Origin: Rhodothermales bacterium | GTDB lineage: Bacteria; Bacteroidota; Rhodothermia; Rhodothermales; JANQRZ01 | Length of the DNA: 64,000 bases | Assembly (NCBI GenBank): GCA_039944855.1 | Contig: JBDUXZ010000005.1 | Location: 62,001-126,000 of the forward strand | Direction of reading: 5' to 3' | In this document: positions 3,202 through 17,768 of the stretch, one piece after another | Numbering within the stretch: the first letter of the stretch is position 1 | Layout: each line of letters starts with the position of its first letter | Position numbers and translations under genes: made by a program | Notes under the pieces: model-generated | Seen by the model: only the letters and a program-made list of their open reading frames with translations | What the model was told of the DNA's origin: nothing | Database searches by the model: none

Positions 3202-6200
3202 TCAGACCCCGATCACGTCGTAGCTCGAGCCCTCGACGGGGTGCTTCGTCACTTCGATGCGGACGGGGAACGCCTCCTTCAGCTCGTCGAGGTGCGTGAT
3301 GACGACGATTTTGTCGAAGTCCTCGCGGATGACTTGGATGGCCTCGACGATGCTCTCGATCCCCTGCTTGTCCTGCGTCCCGAAGCCCTCGTCCACGACG
3401 AGCGTGCGGATGCGGACGCCGCTGCGCTCGGCGAGCAGCTGCGCGAGGGCGATGCGGAGGGCAAAGTTGACCCGAAATGCCTCGCCGCCGGAGAAGGTCT
3501 CGTAGGGCCGCGGCACGCCGCCCTCGTCGGTGATCTTGATGTCGAGCGTCTCTTTCGTCCCGCCGGCCTTCTTCTCCTTGAGTGTTTCGAGGTGGACGCG
3601 GGTGCGGCCCTTCGAGAGCCGTTCGAGCAGGGCATTCGCGCGCTCTTCGATCTCGGGGAGCGTCTCTTCGATGATGAGTGCGGGGATTCCGTTCTTCCCG
3701 AAGGCATCGCGGAGGTGGCGGTAGAGCGTCTTCGCCTTTTTCGCCTCGCGGTGGTCGGCGCGGACCGACCGCAGCTGTTCGCGGTCGCGGGTGCACCGTT
3801 CGAGCCGCTCGACGAGGCCGCCGTAGCGGGCCTGCGCCTCGCTGAGCGAGGCGGCGATCGTGCTTCGCCGCTCGGCGTGCGTGCGCTGCCGCTCGGCGAG
3901 GCCAGCGCGCTGGGCGAGCTTCGCCTCAGCCGCATCAATCGCCGTGCGGAGCCCCGCGGATTCCTCGTCGCCCTGCTTGATTTCATCGGCGAGCGCGGTG
4001 CGGCGGGCGGTCCAATCGGTGAGGTTGCGCTCGGCGTTCGCGAGGCGCATGAACCGCTCCGGCGCCTCCTTCAACCCGTCGATCTCGCGGCGGACGGCCT
4101 CGTGCCGCGCGCCGTCGTACCCAACCGTGGCGAGCTGGCGCTGGAGCGTGTCGATCTGCGACTGGATCGGGGCGAACACGGTGCCGGCGCTGAGCCCTTG
4201 GCGGAGGTCGGCGGCCTCGCGCTCCTGCTGCTCGATCTGCCGGCCGAGCGTCTCCATCCGTCCGTGCAGCTCGTCGAGCGCCCGGAGCTGGTCTTCGAAG
4301 CGGGCGCGCTGCGCGGCCTCGGCCTGCACCTGCTCGAATCGCTCGGAGTCGAACGGGAGCTCGGCGAGGCGGTCGGAAAGCTCGGTGCGCTCGGCGCGGA
4401 GGTCGGGCCGGAAGGCGTCGGCGCGAAGCTGGCGGTCGAGGTCGTCGGCGCGGCGGCGCTGCTCGGCGACGGTGGCGTCGGCTTTCTCGGCGGTGGCGAG
4501 CTCGGCCTGCACGGCGGCGAACGCATCGGCGACGCCGTTCGCCTGCCCGATCTGCCCTGCGAGGTCGCGGTAGCGCGCGAGCAATTGCTCGCGGTGCTGC
4601 TGCTTCTCGTCGCGGCGCCGGTCGACGTCGGCAATCGCGGCGACGATGGCGGCGCGTTCGTCGGCGTAGGTCTGCTCGACGGTCCGCCGGTGCTCGGGCG
4701 TGAGCGCCGTGCCGCACGTCGGGCACGTCTCCGTTTCGAGTTCGCGGAGCCCGGCCACCTTCGCGTCGACGGCAGCGACCTCGCGCTGGAGCCGCTCGCG
4801 CTCGCGCTCGAATCCTTCGAGCTCGGCCTTCACCCCGCTCCCCTGCTCGCGGATGTCGCTCTGCTCGCCCTCCAGCGCCTTCACCGCGGCCACGCGCTCG
4901 CGCAGTCCTCCCGCCCGCTCGCGCAGTCGCGGCAGCGCCTCGGCGAGGGCCTGCGCCTCGCGCACCTGCTGCTGGACCTGGACGACTGTGGCTTGAAGGG
5001 CGCCGCGCTCGCTCGCGAGTTGCTTGTCGAGCGCCGTGAGGCGGGCCTCGATCCGGAGCCGTTCGTCGCGCCGGTCGCGCAACCCCTCGACCTCGCGCTG
5101 CGCCGCGAGCGCCTTGTCGAGCCCGCGTTGCGCGGCCGGGCGCTCCACGAGTCGCCGCTCGGCCTCGTCGCGCGCGCGCCGGTTCGATTGCAGTTCGGTC
5201 TCGACTTTTGTGAGGCGGGCTTCGGCCTGCATCCGCTGGCGCTGGAGCTCGATCCTCTTCTCGCCGAGCTGGGAGTCGAGCCCGCGCTGGAGGTCGGCTT
5301 TGTCGTCCCACGTCTGGCGCTCGGCGAGGAGCGTTTCGTAGCGAGCGTGATTGCGGCGGATAGCCTCGCTCTGGGCGATGAGCGCCTCGGCGTCGGCGAT
5401 GCGGGCGCGGAGCCCTTCGCGCTCGGTTTCGAGTTCACGCTTGCGGGCGTCGATCCGCTCGCACCGCGCCCGCTGCTGCCCGACCGACTGCGCGAGCGCG
5501 TCGAGCTCAGCGACGCGCTCCGTCAGGGTCTGCTCCTCGCGCTGCGCCTCGGCCCGCTCCTTTTCGAGGTCGGCGATGATCTTCTCCAGCTCGGCGCGCT
5601 CCGTCTTCCACTGGTCCTCGTGTTCGAGCGCGGCAACGAGCCGCTCGATCTCGCGCTCGGCGTCCTTCCCCCGCTCGTTCGCCGTCGTGAGCCGGGCGCG
5701 GGCGACGGCGGCGAGCCGCTCGTAGCGGTCGAGCCCGAGGATGCGGGCGAGGATCTCCTTCCGGTCGCCGGGCTTCTTCTTCGTGAACTCGTCGGAGCGT
5801 CCCTGGAGGAGGAAGGCCGAGTTGATGAACGTGTCGTAGTCGAGCCGGAGCGTCGTGTCGATCACCGCCTGAGTGTCGCTGATCGAGCCGGCGGTGAGCG
5901 GGCGGAACGTGGCGGCCTCGGCGTCCCACGTCTGGAATTCGAGCCCCGGTTTCGAGGTCTTCCCCGACGCCGTGCGGTAGAACGAGCGGACAACGCGGTA
6001 GCGCTCGCCTTCGAGGTCGAACACGAGTTCGACCTGCATCTCGCGCGTGCCGATGCGGAGGAGGTCCTCATCGGGCTTCCGGGCGTCGGAGGCCTTCCGC
6101 GCCTCGCCCCAGATGGCCCACGTGATCGCGTCGAGCAGGGCCGACTTGCCCTGCCCGTTCCCGCCGGAGAGGCAGGCCACGTGGAACTGCTCGAAGTCGA

Positions 6201-6261
6201 GCGCCTCGGCCGGCGACCCGTACGAGAGGAAGTTCTGGAGCTTGAGGGAGACGGGGATCAT
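3202..6261 (-). CDS. sbcC: SbcC/Rad50-type SMC-like exonuclease subunit
   Basis: A 1019-residue protein. The N-terminal ATPase half contains Walker A (SGGNGQGKSALLDAITWAIWG, about residues 32-52). About 370 residues of coiled coil lead to a zinc hook with Cys513 and Cys516 (ETCPTCGTAL). A second coil leads to the C-terminal half with the signature region (TFSGGEAFRVNFALRIALAQ) and Walker B (TLVVDEGFGTQD). The length matches SbcC (about 1050 residues). With the nuclease SbcD it opens DNA hairpins and protein-blocked ends. No sbcD is adjacent on either side, which is unusual since the pair is normally an operon. A TAGCTTG element 68 bases upstream overlaps the stop of cvpA. Confidence 0.93.
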   Translation of the reverse strand: MIPVSLKLQNFLSYGSPAEALDFEQFHVACLSGGNGQGKSALLDAITWAIWGEARKASDARKPDEDLLRIGTREMQVELVFDLEGERYRVVRSFYRTASGKTSKPGLEFQTWDAEAATFRPLTAGSISDTQAVIDTTLRLDYDTFINSAFLLQGRSDEFTKKKPGDRKEILARILGLDRYERLAAVARARLTTANERGKDAEREIERLVAALEHEDQWKTERAELEKIIADLEKERAEAQREEQTLTERVAELDALAQSVGQQRARCERIDARKRELETEREGLRARIADAEALIAQSEAIRRNHARYETLLAERQTWDDKADLQRGLDSQLGEKRIELQRQRMQAEARLTKVETELQSNRRARDEAERRLVERPAAQRGLDKALAAQREVEGLRDRRDERLRIEARLTALDKQLASERGALQATVVQVQQQVREAQALAEALPRLRERAGGLRERVAAVKALEGEQSDIREQGSGVKAELEGFERERERLQREVAAVDAKVAGLRELETETCPTCGTALTPEHRRTVEQTYADERAAIVAAIADVDRRRDEKQQHREQLLARYRDLAGQIGQANGVADAFAAVQAELATAEKADATVAEQRRRADDLDRQLRADAFRPDLRAERTELSDRLAELPFDSERFEQVQAEAAQRARFEDQLRALDELHGRMETLGRQIEQQEREAADLRQGLSAGTVFAPIQSQIDTLQRQLATVGYDGARHEAVRREIDGLKEAPERFMRLANAERNLTDWTARRTALADEIKQGDEESAGLRTAIDAAEAKLAQRAGLAERQRTHAERRSTIAASLSEAQARYGGLVERLERCTRDREQLRSVRADHREAKKAKTLYRHLRDAFGKNGIPALIIEETLPEIEERANALLERLSKGRTRVHLETLKEKKAGGTKETLDIKITDEGGVPRPYETFSGGEAFRVNFALRIALAQLLAERSGVRIRTLVVDEGFGTQDKQGIESIVEAIQVIREDFDKIVVITHLDELKEAFPVRIEVTKHPVEGSSYDVIGV

Positions 6262-6328
6262 AGTTCGCGTACAGCGTGAAGTCTATCTATCGGGCCTGTC
6301 AACGGCATGGCACGCCGGGCGCTCGGCG

Positions 6329-6335
6329 CAAGCTA
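6329..6335 (-). promoter_or_regulatory. Predicted -7 element of sbcC overlapping the cvpA stop codon
   Basis: TAGCTTG on the reverse strand. Its first three bases are the TAG stop of the upstream cvpA gene. It lies 68 bases before the sbcC ATG and would allow sbcC to be expressed separately from yqeY-cvpA. Confidence 0.35.
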
Positions 6336-6896
6336 TTGTTCGGCGCCGCCGCCCGCTGCGAAAGCGTCGGCGAGATGAGTCTGGAGCCCGGGGAGGACGA
6401 AGCGGAAGGCGTCCCACGTGAGCGGAGCGAGCGCCCGCACGGGCTCGTACAGCACCGACTTCTCGCGCGTCTCGGTCCCGAAGAGGAGCCCGCCCCGCCC
6501 TGGCACCACGAGGGGCCCGGTGAGCAGGAGCAGCACGCTGAGCCCCAGCGCCGCGCGGAGCCCGCCCACGCCCGCGCCCGCGACCCGGTCGAGCGCGCCG
6601 AGCCGGAGCGCGACCAGCGTTTTCTTGAGGAGCTGCGCCACGACCGCCGCCGCGCCGAGCACGGCCGCGAACGTGACGACGAAGCCAAGTAGCGGCGCGA
6701 GCCGGTCCGCGAGCCCGAGGCTCCCCACGACGAGGTCCCCGACGGGCCGCATCAGCAGCGCCCCAGCGAAGAGTGCCACCACGAGCCCGACCGTCCCGAC
6801 GAGTTGGCGGAGCGCGCCCGTCCGCAGCCCGCGCCAGACGCCGAGCCCGACGACGAGCCCGATCCCCACGTCGAGCCACGGTAGATCGCCCATCAC
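6333..6896 (-). CDS. cvpA: CvpA-family membrane protein
   Basis: A 187-residue inner-membrane protein with four predicted spans and the CvpA pattern: LPWLDVGIGLVVGLGVWRGL at the N-terminus, a GFVVTFAAVLGAAAVVAQLL span, then ALDRVAGAGVGGLRAALGLS with the conserved D-R-x-x-G-x-x-x-G. CvpA is needed for colicin V production and purine-related phenotypes in E. coli, but its molecular role is unclear. It follows yqeY with a 2-base gap. Two adjacent ATGs (6896 and 6893) are possible starts. Confidence 0.82.
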   Translation of the reverse strand: MMGDLPWLDVGIGLVVGLGVWRGLRTGALRQLVGTVGLVVALFAGALLMRPVGDLVVGSLGLADRLAPLLGFVVTFAAVLGAAAVVAQLLKKTLVALRLGALDRVAGAGVGGLRAALGLSVLLLLTGPLVVPGRGGLLFGTETREKSVLYEPVRALAPLTWDAFRFVLPGLQTHLADAFAAGGGAEQ

Positions 6897-6898
6897 GC

Positions 6899-7345
6899 TC
6901 AGGCTTTGAGCAGGTTCTGCACGACGACGCGGACCCGGTTGCCGTCCGCCTGCCCTTTGAGCTCACTCATCACCTCGCCCATCACGCGGCCCATGTCCTT
7001 CATCGACGTCGCGCCCGTGCGCGTGACGATGTCCTGTACGGTGCGGTGAATATCGGCGTCGGAGAGCTGCTTCGGGAGGTAGTGGGCGAGGATGGCGAGC
7101 TCGTCGCGCTCTTTCTGCGCGAGGTCGTCGCGGCCCGCGTCGTCGTACTGCTGCATGGCGTCGCGGCGCTGCTTGGCCTGCTTCTGCACGATCGCGGCGA
7201 GATCGTCATCGCTGACGGGCCCGGTGCCCTCCTTCTCCTTCTCGATGATGGCGGAGCGGATCGAGCGGATCGTGAGGAGCCGGGTCTGGTCCTTCGCCCG
7301 CATCGCGTCTTTGAGGTCGCGTTCGAGCTGTTCTTTCAAGTCCAT
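6899..7345 (-). CDS. GatB/YqeY domain protein
   Basis: A 148-residue protein matching YqeY across its length. It begins with the helical MDLKEQLERDLKDAMRAKD, then TIRSIRSAIIEKEKEG, then AILAHYLPKQLSDADIHRTV and GATSMKDMGRVMGEVMSELKGQADG. The last segment is the tail domain shared with the GatB subunit of Asp/Glu-tRNA amidotransferase. It lacks any catalytic domain and probably binds tRNA. It heads a yqeY-cvpA pair with a TAGTTTCG promoter element 33 bases upstream. Confidence 0.92.
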   Translation of the reverse strand: MDLKEQLERDLKDAMRAKDQTRLLTIRSIRSAIIEKEKEGTGPVSDDDLAAIVQKQAKQRRDAMQQYDDAGRDDLAQKERDELAILAHYLPKQLSDADIHRTVQDIVTRTGATSMKDMGRVMGEVMSELKGQADGNRVRVVVQNLLKA

Positions 7346-7420: not shown

Positions 7421-8242
7421 TTATCGCAGCACGAGGCGGATGGCGAAGACGCCGATGCCGACCTGCATCGCTCCGAGCGCGATCGCGGAGTACGTGTCGT
7501 AGCGTTCGAAGTCGTTCCGCAGCGCGGGGTCGCCACCGGAGCGGGCGTAGGCGTCGTACTCGTCGTCGCCTTTGAACTTGTAGTAGACGGCGACGGCGCC
7601 CGCGCCGAGCGCGAGGCTGACGGCGGCGACGTCGATCCACGTGTTCGGCTTCCGCCTCTCTTGCAGCCCCACCTCGCCCGTCGTTTCCGCCGCGAAATCG
7701 AGGGGCCGGAGCACGAGGCTGTAGCGGTTGTCGGCGGCCTCGCCCGGCGTCTGCTCGGCCGTCGCGTAACCGGGCTTGCGGACGACGAGCACGCCGTCGA
7801 GCGGGCGCTCCACGGAGAGGTCGAGCGGCGTCTCGCCTAGAACCTGTGCTTCCTCCTCCCTTTCGAGGGTCACGGTCGCGCCGTAGGGGAAGCTCTCGAC
7901 GCGGTAGCGGTACGGCACGTCGAGTCGTACCGTCACCGTCTCCCCGGCACGGACCTCCACCGATGCCTCGGCGGTCCGCCGCTGCCACGCCTCGGGCGCG
8001 GCTTCGCGGAGCGTGAGGACGTGCGCGCCCGGCGCGAGCTCGAACAGGGCGGCCTCGGCCGGGCCGAGGGGCGTCTCCCCGGCGTAGATCATCCCGTCCG
8101 GCAGGTTCGTCTCGACGACGACGGTGCCGAGCGGCAGCGGCGCGACGGTCGCAGAGTCCGACTCGGCGACCGCTTCTTGCGCCGAAGCTGGCGCAGTCAC
8201 CGCGAAGGCGAAGAGGGTGAGGAACGGGAGGAGTCTGCGCAT
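7421..8242 (-). CDS. PEGA-domain exported protein
   Basis: A 273-residue protein with a clear signal peptide (MRRLLPFLTLFAFAVTAPASAQ, cleavage after Ala21-Gln22 region). The first repeat, GTVVVETNLPDGMIYAGETP followed by FELAPGAHVLTLRE, fits a PEGA beta domain. A second, more degenerate unit follows (FPYGATVTL, LGETPLDLSVERPLDGVLVVRKPGYA). Two hydrophobic segments near the C-terminus (WIDVAAVSLALGAGAVAVYY and YSAIALGAMQVGIGVFAIRL) suggest membrane anchoring. PEGA domains are usually surface or periplasmic adaptors. The reading frame stays open upstream, but the signal peptide fixes the start at 8242. It is the last gene of an envelope operon, 2 bases after the BamB-like gene. Confidence 0.75.
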   Translation of the reverse strand: MRRLLPFLTLFAFAVTAPASAQEAVAESDSATVAPLPLGTVVVETNLPDGMIYAGETPLGPAEAALFELAPGAHVLTLREAAPEAWQRRTAEASVEVRAGETVTVRLDVPYRYRVESFPYGATVTLEREEEAQVLGETPLDLSVERPLDGVLVVRKPGYATAEQTPGEAADNRYSLVLRPLDFAAETTGEVGLQERRKPNTWIDVAAVSLALGAGAVAVYYKFKGDDEYDAYARSGGDPALRNDFERYDTYSAIALGAMQVGIGVFAIRLVLR

Positions 8243-8244
8243 GG

Positions 8245-9480
8245 CTACTCGTTGCTTGCGGCGACCGGCGAGGCCGGCGCGAAGACGTGGACGTGGCGCG
8301 GCTCGGCGAGGACGATCAGCCGGTCGCCGTGCACGATCGGCGTCGACTTGACACGGCCGTCGAGTTCGTGCTGCCAGAGCACGTCGCCGGTAGCGCGGTC
8401 GAAGGCGTAGACGTGCTCGTCGAGCGATCCGGCGAAGACGACATCGCCGGCGAGGAGCGGGGCGGCGGCGAAGTTGCCGTCGGCGAGGAAGGTCCACACC
8501 GCGCGGCCCGTGGCGGGGTCAAACGCCCGCAGCCGCCCGTCGCTCGCGCCCACGACGACGAGCGCGTCGTCGACGGCCGGGGCGCTGAACCGCACCTCGT
8601 CGCTCTCGGCCTCGGCGCTCCAGCCCGGCTCGCCCGTCGCCGCGTCGAGCGTGACGAAGCGGCCCCGCGTCGTCGGGACGAATAGCCGGCCCCCGTGCAC
8701 GGCGGGCGACGCATAGACAGGGATGCCGAGCTCGCGCGTCCACCGAACGGCGCCGGTGGCGAGGTCGAGCGTCGTCACGCGACCCCGGTCGTCAGCGACA
8801 ATGACGGCGTCGTGCAGCGCGACGGGTGTGGCGAAAAAGCTCGCGAGCGAATCCGGCGTCGTCTGCCAGCGGGCGGTCCCGTCGGCCGGGTCGATGCCGC
8901 GGACGGTGCCGTCGCGCCCGGCGGCGACGAGCGTGTTGTTATCGAGCAGGAGGCCGGCGTCGTGCGGTCCGACGCGGAGCGACCACACCCGCCGTCCGTC
9001 CACGAAGTCGAGCGCGACGATCGTCCGCTTGCCCGCCGCGACGGGCGCGTAGAGCATCCGGTTCGTCACGACGGGCGCGCCCTCGATGGGCTCGCGGAGG
9101 TCCACGCTGCCGCGCTTCCGTCCGTCTTCGAGGCCGAGGACGCGAACCTCTCCCTTCCGCGTCACCACGATCACCACATCGTCGGCGACGACGGCGGCGG
9201 CCGGGCCGAACGCGCCGTCGGCATCGTAGTCCCAGACCTCGTCGAGCGGAAGCGCGAGCGTCTGCTCGGTCGCGTTCGCGCGGGCGTTCGAGCCGCCCTC
9301 CGTCGTCCAATCGCCGTCTTGCACGCGGAGGGGCGCGCTGAGTTGGAGCACGCTGCAGCCAGTTATAAGAGCGGAAGTGAGGAAGAAGGAAACGAGGAAA
9401 GAAAGGGGGCGACCCAACGCCGAGACGTGGCGAAACGCCGTCGCTCTTCCGCTCTTCCGCTCGTCCGCTCGTCCGCTCAT
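8245..9480 (-). CDS. BamB-like PQQ-type beta-propeller lipoprotein
   Basis: About 411 residues with repeated propeller blades of the PQQ/BamB kind, for example GAVRWTRELGIPVYASPAVH, GEPGWSAEAE, LRAFDPATGRAVWTF and YAFDRATGDVLWQHELDG. A lipobox LITGC places the lipidated cysteine at residue 42 if the ATG at 9480 is used. BamB scaffolds the outer-membrane assembly complex. Here the gene follows a protein with an Omp85-like barrel by 4 bases, supporting an outer-membrane assembly or secretion role by inference. The start is uncertain: the first 15 codons are made of 8-bp repeats, while a TTG at 9417 would give a normal-length signal peptide (GRPLSFLVSFFLTSALITGC). Confidence 0.75.
   Translation of the reverse strand: MSGRADERKSGRATAFRHVSALGRPLSFLVSFFLTSALITGCSVLQLSAPLRVQDGDWTTEGGSNARANATEQTLALPLDEVWDYDADGAFGPAAAVVADDVVIVVTRKGEVRVLGLEDGRKRGSVDLREPIEGAPVVTNRMLYAPVAAGKRTIVALDFVDGRRVWSLRVGPHDAGLLLDNNTLVAAGRDGTVRGIDPADGTARWQTTPDSLASFFATPVALHDAVIVADDRGRVTTLDLATGAVRWTRELGIPVYASPAVHGGRLFVPTTRGRFVTLDAATGEPGWSAEAESDEVRFSAPAVDDALVVVGASDGRLRAFDPATGRAVWTFLADGNFAAAPLLAGDVVFAGSLDEHVYAFDRATGDVLWQHELDGRVKSTPIVHGDRLIVLAEPRHVHVFAPASPVAASNE
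9444..9475. repeat. Four tandem 8-bp repeats at the start of the BamB-like gene
   Basis: Two copies of CTCTTCCG followed by two of CTCGTCCG, directly after the ATG at 9480 on the reverse strand. The unit length is not a multiple of three, so copy-number change would shift the frame of an ATG-started product. Only four copies are present. Confidence 0.85.
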
Positions 9481-9484
9481 CGCA

Positions 9485-12466
9485 TTAAAAGTTGTAGCCG
9501 AAGAAGAAGGACGAGAACCGGTCGCGCTCGGACCACTGGAGGCCGTCGAGGAAGCGGTAGCCGGTGTCGTAGCGGAGGATGAAGCCGCCAAAGAGGTTCA
9601 TCCGCAGGCCGACACCGACCGCGCCGAGGTCGCTCCCCGCGTAGAGTTGCGGCTGGCGCTGGTCGTAGTCATCGTTCCAGACGTGGGCGGCGTCGGCGAA
9701 GAGGGCGCCGCGGAGGTTCACGATGCCGAACGGCGCGAGGAGCGGGATGTACGCGCTCGGGCGTTCGAGAATCGGGAAGCGGAGCTCCTGCGAGGTGAAC
9801 CACATGTTGCGCCCGCGGACGCGGAAGAGCGGGAAGCCGCGGAGGTCCCAGCTCCCGCCGAGTAGCGACAGCCGCGCCTCCCGCCCGACGTTCGTCCGCA
9901 CGAGCCCCCATGAGGCGAAGGTCACGCCGGGCACGATGCGGAGGTAGTGGCGAGCGTCGGCGGTGAGGGTGTAGTAGCTCACGTTCGAGAAGCGGACGTC
10001 GGTGGTATAGGCCGCCGTCACGTTCGCCTTCCACCCGTCGATGGGGCCGTTGTAGTCGTAGAGCGCGTTGTCGTGCGTGACGCCGATCGCGTTCGAGAGG
10101 AGGAACGCCTCGCGGTCGATGTCGCTGATGAAGATCTCTTTCCGGTCGTAGTTGAACGAGGACTGGACGTCGACGCGCTGGAACTTCGAGATCGGGTAGC
10201 TCACGAGCCCGACCACGCCGACGAGCTGCTCGAAGAACACGGGGTAGACATCGGCGGCGTCGGGGTCGGTGAGGTCGTAGCGCTGGCCGCTGTAGCGGTA
10301 GACGCCGTAGCCGTAGTTGGCGCGGCGGCCGAGGTGGATCCGGGTGACGGAGGCGTTGAGCCCGTCGACGAACGAGCGGCCGGGGACGCGCGTGCTGTAG
10401 GCCGAGACGTAGATCTGGTCGTTGCCGAGGAGGTCAGAGAAGGCGAGCACGGCGCCGCCGCTCGTGCCCCACACCGGGTTCGTGGAGAGCGCGCCCTGCG
10501 CGGCGTCGAGCGTGTACGACTTGCGGTAGGGCTGGCGGCGTTCCTCGTCTTGCACCCGGAGGCGGCCGTACGCCCACGGCTCGGCGTCGGCGCGGTCCGC
10601 GAGCCCGACGACAGCGCGGCGGCGCGGCGCGAGGATGAGCGAGTCGGCGGGGGCGCGGCGGATCGTGAAGCGCGAGTCCTCGATCGTGGCAAAGAGGAGG
10701 TCGTCGTCGTCGGTCCACACGGGGTCGAAGGCGGCCCCCGTGAACGCGGTGAGCTGCGTCTCCTCCCGCGCCGTCTCGGGCAACGCGACCGGGTCGCCGG
10801 CATCCACGAGCGCGATCTCGGCCGGCTCGCCGGGCGGGCGGCGCATGTCGGCCACCCAGAGGTCCTGCCCGCTGAACTTCCCGTCCTCGCCGCGCCGCGA
10901 CGAGATGTAGACGAGCCGCTCGCCGTCGGGGCTCCACGCGGGCGAGAGGTCGACCTGCTCGCCGTACGTGACGTAGTCCACCGCGCCCGTAGCGAGCGTG
11001 AGCGAGAAGATGTTGTACGCCCCGTCCTCGCCGAAGTCGGTGCGGTCGGAGGAGAACGCGAGCCGCTCGCCGTCGGGGCTCCACGCGGGGTCGCGGTCGT
11101 CGTAGGCGTCGTTGGTCAGCTTGCGGAGGGCGTCGGTCGTAGTGTCGTAGGTGTAGAGGTCGGCGAAGCCGCTCATGTCGATCGACGTGAAGGCAAGGCG
11201 GGTGCCCGTGGGGTCCCACGACGGCGAGTAGACTGCGATGAGGTCGTCGAAGCGGTAGGTCGTCTCGAATGCGTCGCGGGCGAGGTCGTAGACGTGGATC
11301 ACGTCGGCCTCGCCGCTCTGCGTGACGAAGGCGAGCTTGCCGTCGGGGCTGACGTCCATCCGGCTCTCGAAGAAGTGGAATGCCTCGAACCGCCCGCTCC
11401 GCTCGCCCTCGACGAGCACGCGCGGCTCGTCGAGCGGCTCGCCCTCGGCGTCCACCTCGACGGCGAAGAGGTTCATGTACCCGTCGCGGTTGCCGACGAA
11501 GACGATCTCGCGGCGGCCGTCGGCGTGCTGGTAGAACGCGGGCTTGCCGCTGAAGCCGCGCGCGGTGACGGCCTCGGAGACGAGCGTCGGCGGCGTGGCC
11601 TCGTCGAGCTTGGGGAAGTACTGCTCCTGCACCCACGCCGTCCACTGATCCGAGAGGTCGCGGTAGTCCACGCGGAGCACCGTCTCCATCACCTTGCGGA
11701 AATCGGGGTCGCGCCAGAACTCTTCGAGGAGGCGGAGGAGCTTCTCCTCGCCGTAGGTCTCAGCGATGAAGCGGCAGGCGGCCTCGCCCTCCTTGTACAT
11801 GAGGTACGTGCCGTAGATGCGGTCGAGGTTTTCGAGCGGGACGAAGTAGTTGCTCGCGACGGCGTCGCGGAGGACCATCTCGTGCTGGAAGTCCGGCTCG
11901 CCGCTCCAGTATTCGGCCAGCCCCTCGGTGAACCACAGCGGCGGGACGCCGTCGAGCGGGCGGCGGTGGTCGCGCATCACCCGCGTGAGCTTGGAGTAGG
12001 TGAACACGTGGACGAGCTCGTGCCGGATCACGCGGCGGAAGCGGTGGATGTTGCCGTTCGCCGGGATCACGACGCGCCCTTTGAGGAACTCGAAGAACCC
12101 GCCGACGCCGTCGGGGATGAAGCCCGGCGTGATGTTCGTCTGCTTGAAGTGGAGGTTCGACGAGTAGAAGATGAGGGGGACGCGGTGGTTGAGGGAGAAG
12201 TCGAACTTGTTCTCCAGCTCGCCATAGGCCTCCTCGGCGAAGTGCGCGCCGTGCTCGGCGAGCGCCTGCATCTCGGGGTAGTAGTAGATGTCGAAGTGGT
12301 CCGTGCGGAGGACGTGCCAGTCGAACCCCTCGTACTGGATCTTATTGCGGCCGTAGTAGAAGTGGTACTGCGCGAGGGCGGGCGCCGTGGCGAGCCACGC
12401 GGCCGGGAGCAGCAGCGCGAGGGCGAGCGCGAGGCGGGAGAGCGCGTGTCGGAGGCGTCGGGGCAT
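9485..12466 (-). CDS. Metallopeptidase-like, TolB-propeller and outer-membrane barrel fusion protein
   Basis: A 993-residue exported protein in three parts. After a signal peptide (about residues 1-32) comes a peptidase-MA-like domain with the zinc motif HELVH (His149, Glu150, His153) and a downstream WFTEGLAEYW supplying a third ligand. Residues about 310-560 carry WD40-like/PD40 propeller units of the TolB kind (AWSPDGERLAFSSD, AWSPDGERLVYISS). The last 300 residues are aromatic-rich beta strands ending FFFGYNF, as in Omp85-type barrels. The whole architecture is known from Bacteroidota and related phyla as an uncharacterised 'PD40 domain' protein. It heads an operon with the BamB-like and PEGA genes. 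Zinc-dependent proteolysis and barrel insertion are inferred. Confidence 0.8.
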   Translation of the reverse strand: MPRRLRHALSRLALALALLLPAAWLATAPALAQYHFYYGRNKIQYEGFDWHVLRTDHFDIYYYPEMQALAEHGAHFAEEAYGELENKFDFSLNHRVPLIFYSSNLHFKQTNITPGFIPDGVGGFFEFLKGRVVIPANGNIHRFRRVIRHELVHVFTYSKLTRVMRDHRRPLDGVPPLWFTEGLAEYWSGEPDFQHEMVLRDAVASNYFVPLENLDRIYGTYLMYKEGEAACRFIAETYGEEKLLRLLEEFWRDPDFRKVMETVLRVDYRDLSDQWTAWVQEQYFPKLDEATPPTLVSEAVTARGFSGKPAFYQHADGRREIVFVGNRDGYMNLFAVEVDAEGEPLDEPRVLVEGERSGRFEAFHFFESRMDVSPDGKLAFVTQSGEADVIHVYDLARDAFETTYRFDDLIAVYSPSWDPTGTRLAFTSIDMSGFADLYTYDTTTDALRKLTNDAYDDRDPAWSPDGERLAFSSDRTDFGEDGAYNIFSLTLATGAVDYVTYGEQVDLSPAWSPDGERLVYISSRRGEDGKFSGQDLWVADMRRPPGEPAEIALVDAGDPVALPETAREETQLTAFTGAAFDPVWTDDDDLLFATIEDSRFTIRRAPADSLILAPRRRAVVGLADRADAEPWAYGRLRVQDEERRQPYRKSYTLDAAQGALSTNPVWGTSGGAVLAFSDLLGNDQIYVSAYSTRVPGRSFVDGLNASVTRIHLGRRANYGYGVYRYSGQRYDLTDPDAADVYPVFFEQLVGVVGLVSYPISKFQRVDVQSSFNYDRKEIFISDIDREAFLLSNAIGVTHDNALYDYNGPIDGWKANVTAAYTTDVRFSNVSYYTLTADARHYLRIVPGVTFASWGLVRTNVGREARLSLLGGSWDLRGFPLFRVRGRNMWFTSQELRFPILERPSAYIPLLAPFGIVNLRGALFADAAHVWNDDYDQRQPQLYAGSDLGAVGVGLRMNLFGGFILRYDTGYRFLDGLQWSERDRFSSFFFGYNF

Positions 12467-12595: not shown

Positions 12596-13627
12596 TCAGA
12601 GCCGCAGCGCGTCGAGCGGGCTCACGACGCCGAGCCCGCCCCGGTTGAGGACGTGGGTGTAGACCATCGTCGTGTTGACGCTGGCGTGGCCGAGCAGCTC
12701 CTGCACCGTGCGGATGTCGGCCCCTCGCGCGAGGAGGTGCGTGGCGAAGGAGTGCCGGAAGACGTGCGGCGAGACGGGCTTCGCGATCTCCGCTCGGCGT
12801 GCGGCCCGCCGTACGGCCCGTTGCACCGCGCTCGGCCCGAGGTGGTGGCGCAGCTCCCGCCCGCTTCTCGGGTCCACGGAGGGCTGCGCGGCCGGGAACA
12901 CGTAGCGCCAGCCCCATTCGGTCGCTGCGTTCGGATACTTCCGCTCCAGCGCACCGGGGAGCGAGACCGTCGCGGTGCCCTCGTCGAGTTCGGCCTCGTA
13001 GCGGAGTCGCTCACGGCCGAGGTGCCGCTCCACCGGCTCGTGCACTGCCTCGGGGAAGACCGTGATGCGGTCCTTCCCCCCCTTCCCGTCGCGGACGACG
13101 AGGTGGGCATAGCCGGAGTCGAGGTCTTTGACCCGGAGGCGGAGCGCCTCGGTGAGCCGAAGGCCGGAGCCGTAGAGGAGCATGGCGATGAGCCGGTGCG
13201 TCCCGCGCAGGTGAGTCAGCACGCGCTCCACCTCCTCCCGGGTGAGCACGACGGGGAGCCGGCGCGGACGTTTGGCCCGGACGAGCGCCCGGGGGCCGTC
13301 GGCGGCCTCGTCGCCGAGGGGGCCGAGCGGGGCACCGAGCACCGCGTCGTAGAGGAAGAGGAGCGCCGCAAGGGCCTGGTTCTGCGTCGAGGCGGCAACG
13401 TGACGGTCTACGGCGAGGTGTGTGAGAAAGGCGGTGACCTCGGGCTCGCGCATCGTCGCTGGATGGCGCGGGCGGCCGCGGCCGTCGCGGTGGTAGCGGC
13501 AGAAGCGGCGGACCCAGCCGGTATACGCCTGCTCCGTCCGGTAGCTGTAGTGTCGGAGCCGACAGGCGAGGCGGACGAGGTCGAGGAGCCGGGGCGCGGC
13601 GGCGTCGGGGAGCGGGGCGGAGTCCAT
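12596..13627 (-). CDS. intI: Integron integrase (IntI-type tyrosine recombinase)
   Basis: A 343-residue tyrosine recombinase with the full catalytic set: Arg157 ([13 protein letters not shown]), Lys in GKGGKDR (182-186), His288 and Arg291 ([12 protein letters not shown]), His314 (LLGHASV) and Tyr323 (MVYTHV). The N-terminal SAM-like domain ([17 protein letters not shown]) is close to IntI proteins. Between the lysine and His288 it carries the insertion found only in integron integrases ([19 protein letters not shown], about residues 228-246), which binds the extrahelical bases of folded attC sites. That separates it from XerC/XerD and phage integrases. The gene points away from the cassettes at 13876-14935, the standard integron layout. 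No damage is seen, so it is probably active. Confidence 0.93.
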
Positions 13628-16631: not shown

Positions 16632-17675
16632 TCACGCCTCGGCGAGAGTCCGCTTGAGTTGCTGGATCGTCTCGACCGGCGTCGGGTCCACGCCGACGAG
16701 CATGGCGAGGTAGTACGACACGAAGTCGCCGTGCTGAATCATCGAGAGCATCCGCGCCAGCTTGCTCTCGCCGCGCGACGAGATCTCGGTCCAGCCCGCC
16801 GCATCGCCCGCGAGGAGGTCGCGCGTCACGTCCATCCGCCGCTGGATCTGCGGGTGGTCGGCGGCGTCGCGGAGGACGAGGACGTGGAGCCGGCCGCGGA
16901 GGTCGTCGGGGGCGGACTCCCACCCCATCACCTCGTTGTGGTTTAACTCGGCGAAGACGTTCCCGAAGGCGAGCTGCTTGGCGTTCTCGTGGATCTGGTT
17001 CATCCACCGCACGCCGACGGCCTGCATCAGCCCCGGCCCCGTGTACACGACGGGGATCGTGCCTTCGAGCGCGCGGGCGAGGTCGAGCGCCTCGTTCCCG
17101 TCGGTGTCGGCGTACTCGGCAGCGCCGGCGTCGACGACGTCGAGGGCTTCGGTGTACTCGGCGTCGGACACGTCGCAGAGGCCGAGCTTGTTCGCCATGC
17201 GGAGGAGCGCGCCGAGCGAGTAGCCGAGGGCGGCGCGGGGCTGGAGCCCGCCGGGGATGACGACGTGCGGGAGCCCATCGCGCTCGGCGCGGTCTTGTAA
17301 CTCGCCGCCGGACGTGATGACGTAGATATCCGCGCCGCGCTCCCTCGCTGCATCGAACGCCGAGAGCGTCTCTTCCGTCCCGCCCGAATAGCTCGACGCG
17401 ATCACGAGCGTCCCCTCGCCCACCGACGCCGGGAGCGTGTAGTCGCGGACGACGGAGATGGGGACGGGCGACGTGTCGCGGCAGTACGTCCGCACGAGGT
17501 CCCCGCCGATCGCAGAGCCGCCCATCCCCACGATCACGACCTGCCGGAGGTCGGCGGCGCGGTGGGCGGCGATGAAGTCAGCGGCGCGGGTCCAACCTTC
17601 GCGGACGTGGTCGGGAAAGGCGCGGACGGCACCGAACATGTCGGCAGGGTCGAGCCGGTCAATCAGGTCTTGCAT
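16632..17675 (-). CDS. Bifunctional phosphoglucose/phosphomannose isomerase (SIS domain)
   Basis: A 347-residue protein with two SIS subdomains. The first holds QVVIVGMGGSAIGGDLV and VIASSYSGGTEETLSAFDAARERGA, the sugar-phosphate-binding signature. The C-terminal region contains NHNEVMGWE and WTEISSRGESKLARMLSMIQHGDFVSYYLA, which match the archaeal/bacterial bifunctional PGI/PMI family (about 330 residues) rather than classical PGI. It interconverts glucose-6-P or mannose-6-P with fructose-6-P. The start at 17675 is chosen because the upstream frame runs through a palindromic repeat at 17704-17731. It lies downstream of ptsI on the same strand. Confidence 0.87.
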   Translation of the reverse strand: MQDLIDRLDPADMFGAVRAFPDHVREGWTRAADFIAAHRAADLRQVVIVGMGGSAIGGDLVRTYCRDTSPVPISVVRDYTLPASVGEGTLVIASSYSGGTEETLSAFDAARERGADIYVITSGGELQDRAERDGLPHVVIPGGLQPRAALGYSLGALLRMANKLGLCDVSDAEYTEALDVVDAGAAEYADTDGNEALDLARALEGTIPVVYTGPGLMQAVGVRWMNQIHENAKQLAFGNVFAELNHNEVMGWESAPDDLRGRLHVLVLRDAADHPQIQRRMDVTRDLLAGDAAGWTEISSRGESKLARMLSMIQHGDFVSYYLAMLVGVDPTPVETIQQLKRTLAEA

Positions 17676-17703
17676 AGCGTTGGCATCAGGATTCGAATTG
17701 GAG

Positions 17704-17731
17704 GTAGAGACGCAGCATGCTGCGTCTCTAC
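17704..17731. repeat. Perfect 28-bp palindrome in the intergenic space
   Basis: Each arm is 14 bases; the left arm reads GTAGAGACGCAGCA and the right is its exact complement. It lies between ptsI and the SIS isomerase. Palindromes of this GTAGAGACGC type are, to my recollection, dispersed in many bacterial genomes as small non-coding repeats. It could form a hairpin in the transcript between the two genes. Confidence 0.85.
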
Positions 17732-17768
17732 GGGGACGTGCGCGACGCCGCGCAATGTGCCTCACGCC

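Follow-up and report, generated by a model that had tools for sequence, protein, structure and literature searches.

A three-gene envelope operon of Rhodothermales encodes a peptidase–propeller–Omp85 barrel protein, a BamB-like lipoprotein and a PEGA protein

Introduction

Can a barrel machine of the outer membrane carry its own protease, and are Omp85 fusion proteins assembly factors or anchored enzymes? Both questions are raised by three adjacent genes, which we call P1, P2 and P3, in a stretch of 64,000 nucleotides of a Rhodothermales bacterium (contig JBDUXZ010000005.1, positions 62,001 to 126,000; hereafter the window) taken from a 4.6 Mb draft genome. The close relatives of this genome are Rhodothermales, the nearest named one being isolate IP29b_bin.81, with a P1 identity of 78-80%. 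Proteins of the Omp85 superfamily build outer membranes; for several branches no function is known. The branch represented by P1 has a well-defined domain layout and catalytic residues that never vary; its two partners are constant, and lineages that lost it naturally allow comparison. The three genes are as follows.

12466..9485, minus strand: P1, peptidase / TolB-like propeller / Omp85 barrel protein, 993 amino acids (sequence, Pfam, AlphaFold)
9480..8245, minus strand: P2, BamB-like PQQ-type propeller lipoprotein, 411 amino acids (sequence, Pfam, TIGR models)
8242..7421, minus strand: P3, PEGA / helical-hairpin protein, 273 amino acids (sequence, Pfam, predicted structure)

The genes are separated by gaps of 4 and 2 bases (P1 stop 9487..9485, P2 start 9480; P2 stop 8247..8245, P3 start 8242), exactly as an earlier note on this DNA had described. 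Here we report that the triplet is a real, old and coherent three-gene unit, a new combination of known parts. Several bacterial groups have retained or shed it as a whole, which makes it probable that the triplet is a genuine, unstudied envelope machine. With middling confidence, we read the operon as encoding a complex that handles clients at the outer membrane and provides proteolytic quality control, at a locus distinct from that of BamA.

The three genes are kept together and lost together

We surveyed gene order at 40 loci of the order Rhodothermales, 38 of which lay on contigs long enough to be informative. In all 38, P1, P2 and P3 were consecutive on one strand, their ends usually overlapping or nearly touching. 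A further 40 loci came from more distant members of the class or phylum; P2 came next to P1 in 36 of them, and the full triplet was recognised in 32, with one more carrying a shortened P3 identified by eye. The count for named genomes was restricted to loci with enough downstream sequence (n=63) and gave the triplet in 51, P1 and P2 in 5, and neither P2 nor P3 in 7. They include members of Rhodothermales, Ignavibacteria, Kryptonia, Calditrichota, KSB1 and Neomarinimicrobiota. The adjacency in relatives, on which the earlier note had staked its proposal, is far beyond chance.

A quick P1 tree with a very distant outgroup placed the Rhodothermales sequences together (98) and the Calditrichota sequences together (100), which fits mainly vertical descent. 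Outside the Rhodothermales-Ignavibacteria side, the triplet went undetected in many of the genomes sampled from the wider phylum, which may explain why it has been overlooked. One genome (L186), labelled Ectothiorhodospiraceae, has the triplet and groups with Ignavibacteria/Bacteroidota sequences; it probably comes from a mislabelled or contaminated bin.

Presence and absence were scored in 99 genomes of the order. P1 was found in 75 of them, and P2 and P3 were present in every one of these 75. Of the 24 genomes without P1, none had a full-length P2 and only two (G091 and G057) had a piece of P3. G057 retains 25 codons of P1 and, adjoining them, the latter half of P3; the usual YqeY-CvpA genes follow immediately downstream. 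This is the scar of a joint deletion unless it reflects an assembly fault. The YqeY-CvpA block is intact but the triplet is gone in G046 and in three genomes of one family, f13 (G014, G040, G060). Together, this suggests about three separate losses of the whole set. Three candidates were not counted as losses: in G091, P1 and P2 are missing only because the contig ends, and G071 and G089 also miss YqeY, which probably reflects assembly gaps.

The joint loss of the three genes supports a self-contained unit, and this part of the earlier proposal of a self-contained assembly, secretion or quality-control machine stands; the function itself is plausible. A conserved neighbourhood might instead arise from co-regulation or old synteny alone, with no shared complex. 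Genes for an SIS isomerase, an EI-like protein, a polyprenyl synthase and an Idi-2-like protein, which are found upstream at roughly half of the distant loci, would fit such an account. However, flanking genes change between lineages while P1, P2 and P3 stay together with overlapping ends and vanish together, and we regard this explanation as very improbable.

P1 joins a predicted zinc peptidase, a TolB-like propeller and an Omp85 barrel in one chain

The following features were located in P1.

12371..12466, minus strand: residues 1-32, signal peptide, with probable cleavage before Gln33 (sequence; Gln33 invariant in aligned relatives)
11606..12316, minus strand: residues 51-287, Peptidase_MA_2 (gluzincin-type) domain (Pfam, AlphaFold)
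12089..12157, minus strand: residues 104-126, NLHFKQTNITPGFIPDGVGGFFE, loop entering a probable edge strand, with partly low confidence in the model (alignment, AlphaFold)
12008..12022, minus strand: residues 149-153, HELVH zinc motif (H149, E150 and H153 invariant)
11924..11926, minus strand: Glu181, within WFTEGLAEY (invariant in alignments)
10529..11575, minus strand: residues 298-646, TolB-like beta-propeller (TIGR02800 match, AlphaFold, TolB Z 27)
9488..10516, minus strand: residues 651-993, Omp85 barrel of 16 strands, last residue Phe (Pfam, AlphaFold, BamA Z 23.4)
9809..9880, minus strand: residues 863-886, loop 6 (strands 11/12) with the LRGF motif of Omp85 proteins (alignment, AlphaFold)

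Three Pfam assignments, all above cut-off, cover the chain: Peptidase_MA_2 (PF13485; 3.7e-12, 46.9 bits against a cut-off of 32.4), PD40/TolB-like repeats (1.3e-23) and Omp85 (PF01103; 2.3e-9). An AlphaFold model of the 993-residue protein, built with 38 orthologues (mean predicted local distance difference test, pLDDT, 82; predicted template modelling score, pTM, 0.76), shows in order a signal helix, the mostly helical peptidase domain, the propeller and exactly 16 barrel strands at residues 651-991. Strands 11 and 12 are joined by a loop that corresponds in position to BamA loop 6 and holds the LRGF motif. Structure comparison matched TolB with a Z of 27 over 246 residues and Deinococcus radiodurans BamA with a Z of 23.4 over 301 residues. 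Pfam, AlphaFold and structure comparison thus agree with the earlier description of an HExxH metallopeptidase, a TolB-like propeller and an Omp85-type barrel in a single chain. The predicted barrel at residues 690-993 also holds, but it starts near 651, about 40 residues earlier than proposed.

There was no Pfam match to POTRA in P1, and the modelled residues up to 646 are peptidase and propeller. Nor did Pfam match PF01435 (M48) or TPR at E <= 1, or a patatin domain. In two Rubricoccaceae-like genomes (L076:1798-5211 and L077:5998-8922), P1 carries an extra insertion near the propeller end, at about residue 545-565. The P1 orthologues of two draft genomes (L025 and L034) have one in-frame stop each (TAA, TGA), through recent decay or sequencing error.

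This anatomy bears on whether P1 could act in secretion, as a type V-like autotransporter whose barrel delivers either its own peptidase and propeller or a partner to the surface of the cell. TpsB and autotransporters are precedents in the wider Omp85/type V world, and a similar route was once proposed for patatin-Omp85 proteins (PMC4104836). In the model, however, the propeller is joined straight to barrel strand 1, leaving a linker too short for crossing the pore. The PlpD precedent has moreover been overturned in favour of a periplasmic enzyme (PMC11116518), and we consider secretion quite unlikely.

The peptidase is the best conserved domain of P1

H149, E150, H153 and E181 are invariant in the 38 sequences of the order, as they are in a wider set of 31 sequences whose identity to P1 ranges from 36 to 80%. 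By analogy with gluzincins, Glu181 is probably the third zinc ligand. This conservation suggests that the peptidase would bind zinc and work as a protease. Across 116 P1 sequences, the peptidase has the highest conservation (0.71), followed by the barrel (0.63) and the propeller (0.52), and residues 104-126, at the entry to the probable edge strand thought likely to bind substrate, reach 0.87, on par with the active site. The RG of the LRGF motif is retained in almost all relatives, and the last barrel strand is also conserved. We also considered a His switch like that of BepA, and rejected it: a single additional His near the site, H195, is invariant across the order, but beyond the order it is not retained.

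P1 is not the only protein of its kind in the genome. Two peptidase-propeller-Omp85 paralogues of 1161 and 1055 amino acids keep the HExxH motif (G000:C33:79560-82874, L219:3561-7043; and G000:C33:34529-35311, L220:1205-4369), and no P2- or P3-like neighbours of either were seen in the stretches fetched. Such paralogues are present in most genomes of the order, including those that have lost the triplet. The genome also encodes two patatin-Omp85 (PlpD-like) proteins (G000:C17:51536, L221; G000:C29:91539, L223). P1 thus belongs to a family of enzyme-barrel fusions.

These observations feed the main rival to our reading, in which the barrel would serve chiefly to anchor P1 in the outer membrane or as a platform for dimers. 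P1 would then be a protease acting in the periplasm on a target of its own, for instance a lipoprotein or a protein associated with peptidoglycan, and P2 and P3 would be regulators or tethers. PlpD sets the example, as an Omp85 protein with a periplasmic enzyme and no demonstrated assembly role (PMC11116518). That the peptidase is the best conserved domain, that enzyme-barrel fusions are common in this genome and that some lineages have P1 without P2 and P3 all agree with it. On the other hand, the barrel is strongly conserved too, including the loop 6 LRGF motif and the last strand, and P2 resembles BamB, a family known from outer-membrane protein assembly. We consider an anchored enzyme possible, if rather doubtful.

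P2 is a BamB-like lipoprotein and P3 carries a constant helical hairpin

P2 matches PQQ_2/BamB at 2.1e-51 (PQQ_2 175 bits, Pfam) and has the lipobox LITGC, whose Cys42 is invariant in 29 sequences, in line with the BamB-like propeller lipoprotein of the earlier note. Against the BamB model TIGR03300, it scores 1.6e-53 and 181.7 bits, under the equivalog cut-off of 285.2. A profile of P2 orthologues found BamB structures at about 1e-40, alongside other PQQ-type propellers and designed ones. We found no second full-length match to P2 or P3 in the genome.

A POTRA-bearing BamA is encoded at a separate locus, next to uppS- and rseP-like genes. No protein of the genome other than P2 matches the BamB model, so P2 could serve BamA as well. 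The suggestion that the triplet stands outside the standard Bam complex is therefore upheld as a matter of gene arrangement only. Looked for as a co-occurring client, LptD (profile PF04453) had no match in any genome of the order, and a control Bacteroides was likewise unmatched.

For P3, the expected PEGA assignment was recovered by Pfam (PF08308; 3.8e-9, 36.8 bits against a cut-off of 20.8). The predicted structure comprises two beta-sandwiches and a two-helix hairpin (34 residues per helix), located as follows.

7712..8128, minus strand: residues 39-177, two beta-sandwich (PEGA-like) domains (predicted structure; dispensable in some relatives)
7427..7642, minus strand: residues 201-272, helical hairpin whose outer halves are hydrophobic and whose polar tip is conserved (predicted structure, alignment)

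Several P3 relatives have lost one or both sandwiches and kept the hairpin. PEGA is thus not universal, and the hairpin with its polar tip is the constant part of P3. The two hydrophobic halves and a signal peptide suggest that the hairpin probably sits in the inner membrane.

An inner-membrane hairpin and a propeller that is nearest to TolB by both sequence and fold recall the Tol-Pal system, and P1 might replace TolB: its propeller would tie the outer membrane to a lipoprotein of the Pal kind and, with P3 as intermediary, to the inner membrane. P1 matches the TolB model TIGR02800 at 7.6e-30, although its 104 bits stay below the cut-off of 343. In keeping with a replacement, the whole genome yielded no TolB_N domain, and the 99 genomes of the order yielded only 10 weak matches, in 7 genomes and in frames of 656-1140 amino acids. 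Yet family f13, which has lost the triplet, still has no TolB_N. The same propeller type also occurs on the two paralogues, and a tether needs no peptidase, making this substitution unlikely in our view. As a co-occurring factor, TolB was rejected: TolB_N is nearly absent throughout the order, whether a genome has the triplet or not, so there is no link.

Genomic setting of the triplet

Downstream of the triplet lies a YqeY-CvpA-SbcC block (window 3202-7345), kept across much of the order, also where the triplet is missing. A tyrosine recombinase (XerC-like) gene lies immediately upstream of P1 (window 12596-13627), possibly a mobile insertion. We rejected this integrase as a member of the system, as it was not found in any of the 40 loci of relatives in the order. 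Further upstream, the window encodes an SIS-type phosphoglucose/phosphomannose isomerase-like protein (16632-17765, minus strand). A homologue immediately precedes P1 in 51 of 94 non-Rhodothermales loci, indicating that the window retains a loosened version of an old neighbourhood.

A proposed client-handling and quality-control complex

Returning to the client-handling and quality-control complex that we favour, we infer the following arrangement. P1 would be seated in the outer membrane by its POTRA-less Omp85 barrel, with the propeller and the N-terminal zinc peptidase in the periplasm. P2 would be anchored beside it as a lipoprotein partner on the periplasmic face of the same membrane. The hairpin of P3 would anchor in the inner membrane while its PEGA domains reach into the periplasm, linking the complex across the envelope. 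Most probably, the propellers would hold unfolded outer-membrane or surface clients close to the barrel. The peptidase would capture clients by adding a strand of theirs to its own edge strand, and would cut those that stall.

Several points weigh against this arrangement. POTRA, the part of BamA that binds BamB and clients, is absent from P1. P2 and P3 are both missing beside P1 in 7 of the 63 named loci, and this minority of lineages implies that P1 can work without them. The loss of the set in a whole family and in single genomes means that it is not essential for every outer membrane. Membership of the Omp85 superfamily is, furthermore, no proof of assembly activity, as PlpD illustrates: a barrel of this superfamily that is fused to an enzyme may serve neither for assembly nor for secretion (PMC11116518).

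A broader version is more tentative still: the triplet may represent an ancient second outer-membrane client-handling machine on the Rhodothermota-Ignavibacteriota-Calditrichota side of the Fibrobacterota-Chlorobiota-Bacteroidota (FCB) group. Its Omp85 barrel, lacking POTRA, would come with a protease and a propeller of its own, and a BamB-like lipoprotein and a partner held in the inner membrane by a hairpin would complete the set. The whole would insert or triage barrel clients and carry out proteolysis on site, in a complex spanning the envelope.

Comparison with known systems

The barrel-plus-propeller kind has been known since 2014 and is unstudied. Heinz and Lithgow described a WD40-Omp85 subfamily with a TolB-like propeller, no POTRA and unknown function, which they likened to a BamA-BamB fusion, and a separate 'Metallo' Omp85 subfamily defined by PF00149 (PMC4104836). 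P1 has the make-up of a WD40-Omp85 protein: an N-terminal TolB-like propeller and an Omp85 barrel without POTRA. PF00149 is a metallophosphatase family, so the 'Metallo' subfamily does not correspond to P1. The WD40-Omp85 proteins were described without a protease, an operon or partners like P2 and P3, and the word 'peptidase' is absent from the main text (PMC4104836), whereas P1 has a peptidase. In 2024, WD40-like and metalloprotease Omp85 subfamilies were still considered not well characterised (PMC11116518). In the literature searched, whose scope left out most subscription papers and all preprints, we found no description of a peptidase module in WD40-Omp85 proteins, of the operon or of the P3 hairpin; a paper on the beta-barrel assembly machinery (BAM) of Flavobacterium johnsoniae mentions neither peptidase, propeller nor BamB.

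With the Omp85/TpsB superfamily at large, P1 shares the 16-stranded barrel and the loop 6 (V/L)RG(F/Y) motif, and it differs from the POTRA-type members BamA and TamA in having no POTRA. PlpD, a patatin-Omp85 protein whose fused enzyme stays in the periplasm and which differs from assembly factors (PMC11116518), likewise bears its enzyme on the N-terminal side of the barrel. It combines a patatin lipase with POTRA, however, whereas P1 combines a zinc peptidase with a propeller, and no such operon partners are described for PlpD. The propeller is alike to TolB of the Tol-Pal system in fold and sequence, but P1 has no TolB_N, carries a barrel and a peptidase, and scores under the TolB cut-off.

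The closest functional parallels are found in the BAM complex and its protease. The barrel fold and loop 6 motif of P1 are like those of BamA (Z up to 23.4), and P2 is like BamB structures and models; the triplet differs in that P1 lacks POTRA, P2 scores under the BamB cut-off and the genome has a separate POTRA-bearing BamA. In Escherichia coli, the M48 zinc peptidase BepA uses an edge strand to handle LptD on the BAM complex, for assembly and degradation alike (PMC8423444). P1 shares with BepA, which works with barrel machinery, an HExxH zinc peptidase and an edge strand beside the active site; its peptidase, however, is Peptidase_MA_2 rather than M48, has no TPR and lies in the same chain as the barrel. 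On the reading that we favour, the scaffold role of BamA and BamB and the protease role of BepA would be largely merged in one chain, whereas E. coli keeps these parts separate, with BamB on BamA and BepA on its own.

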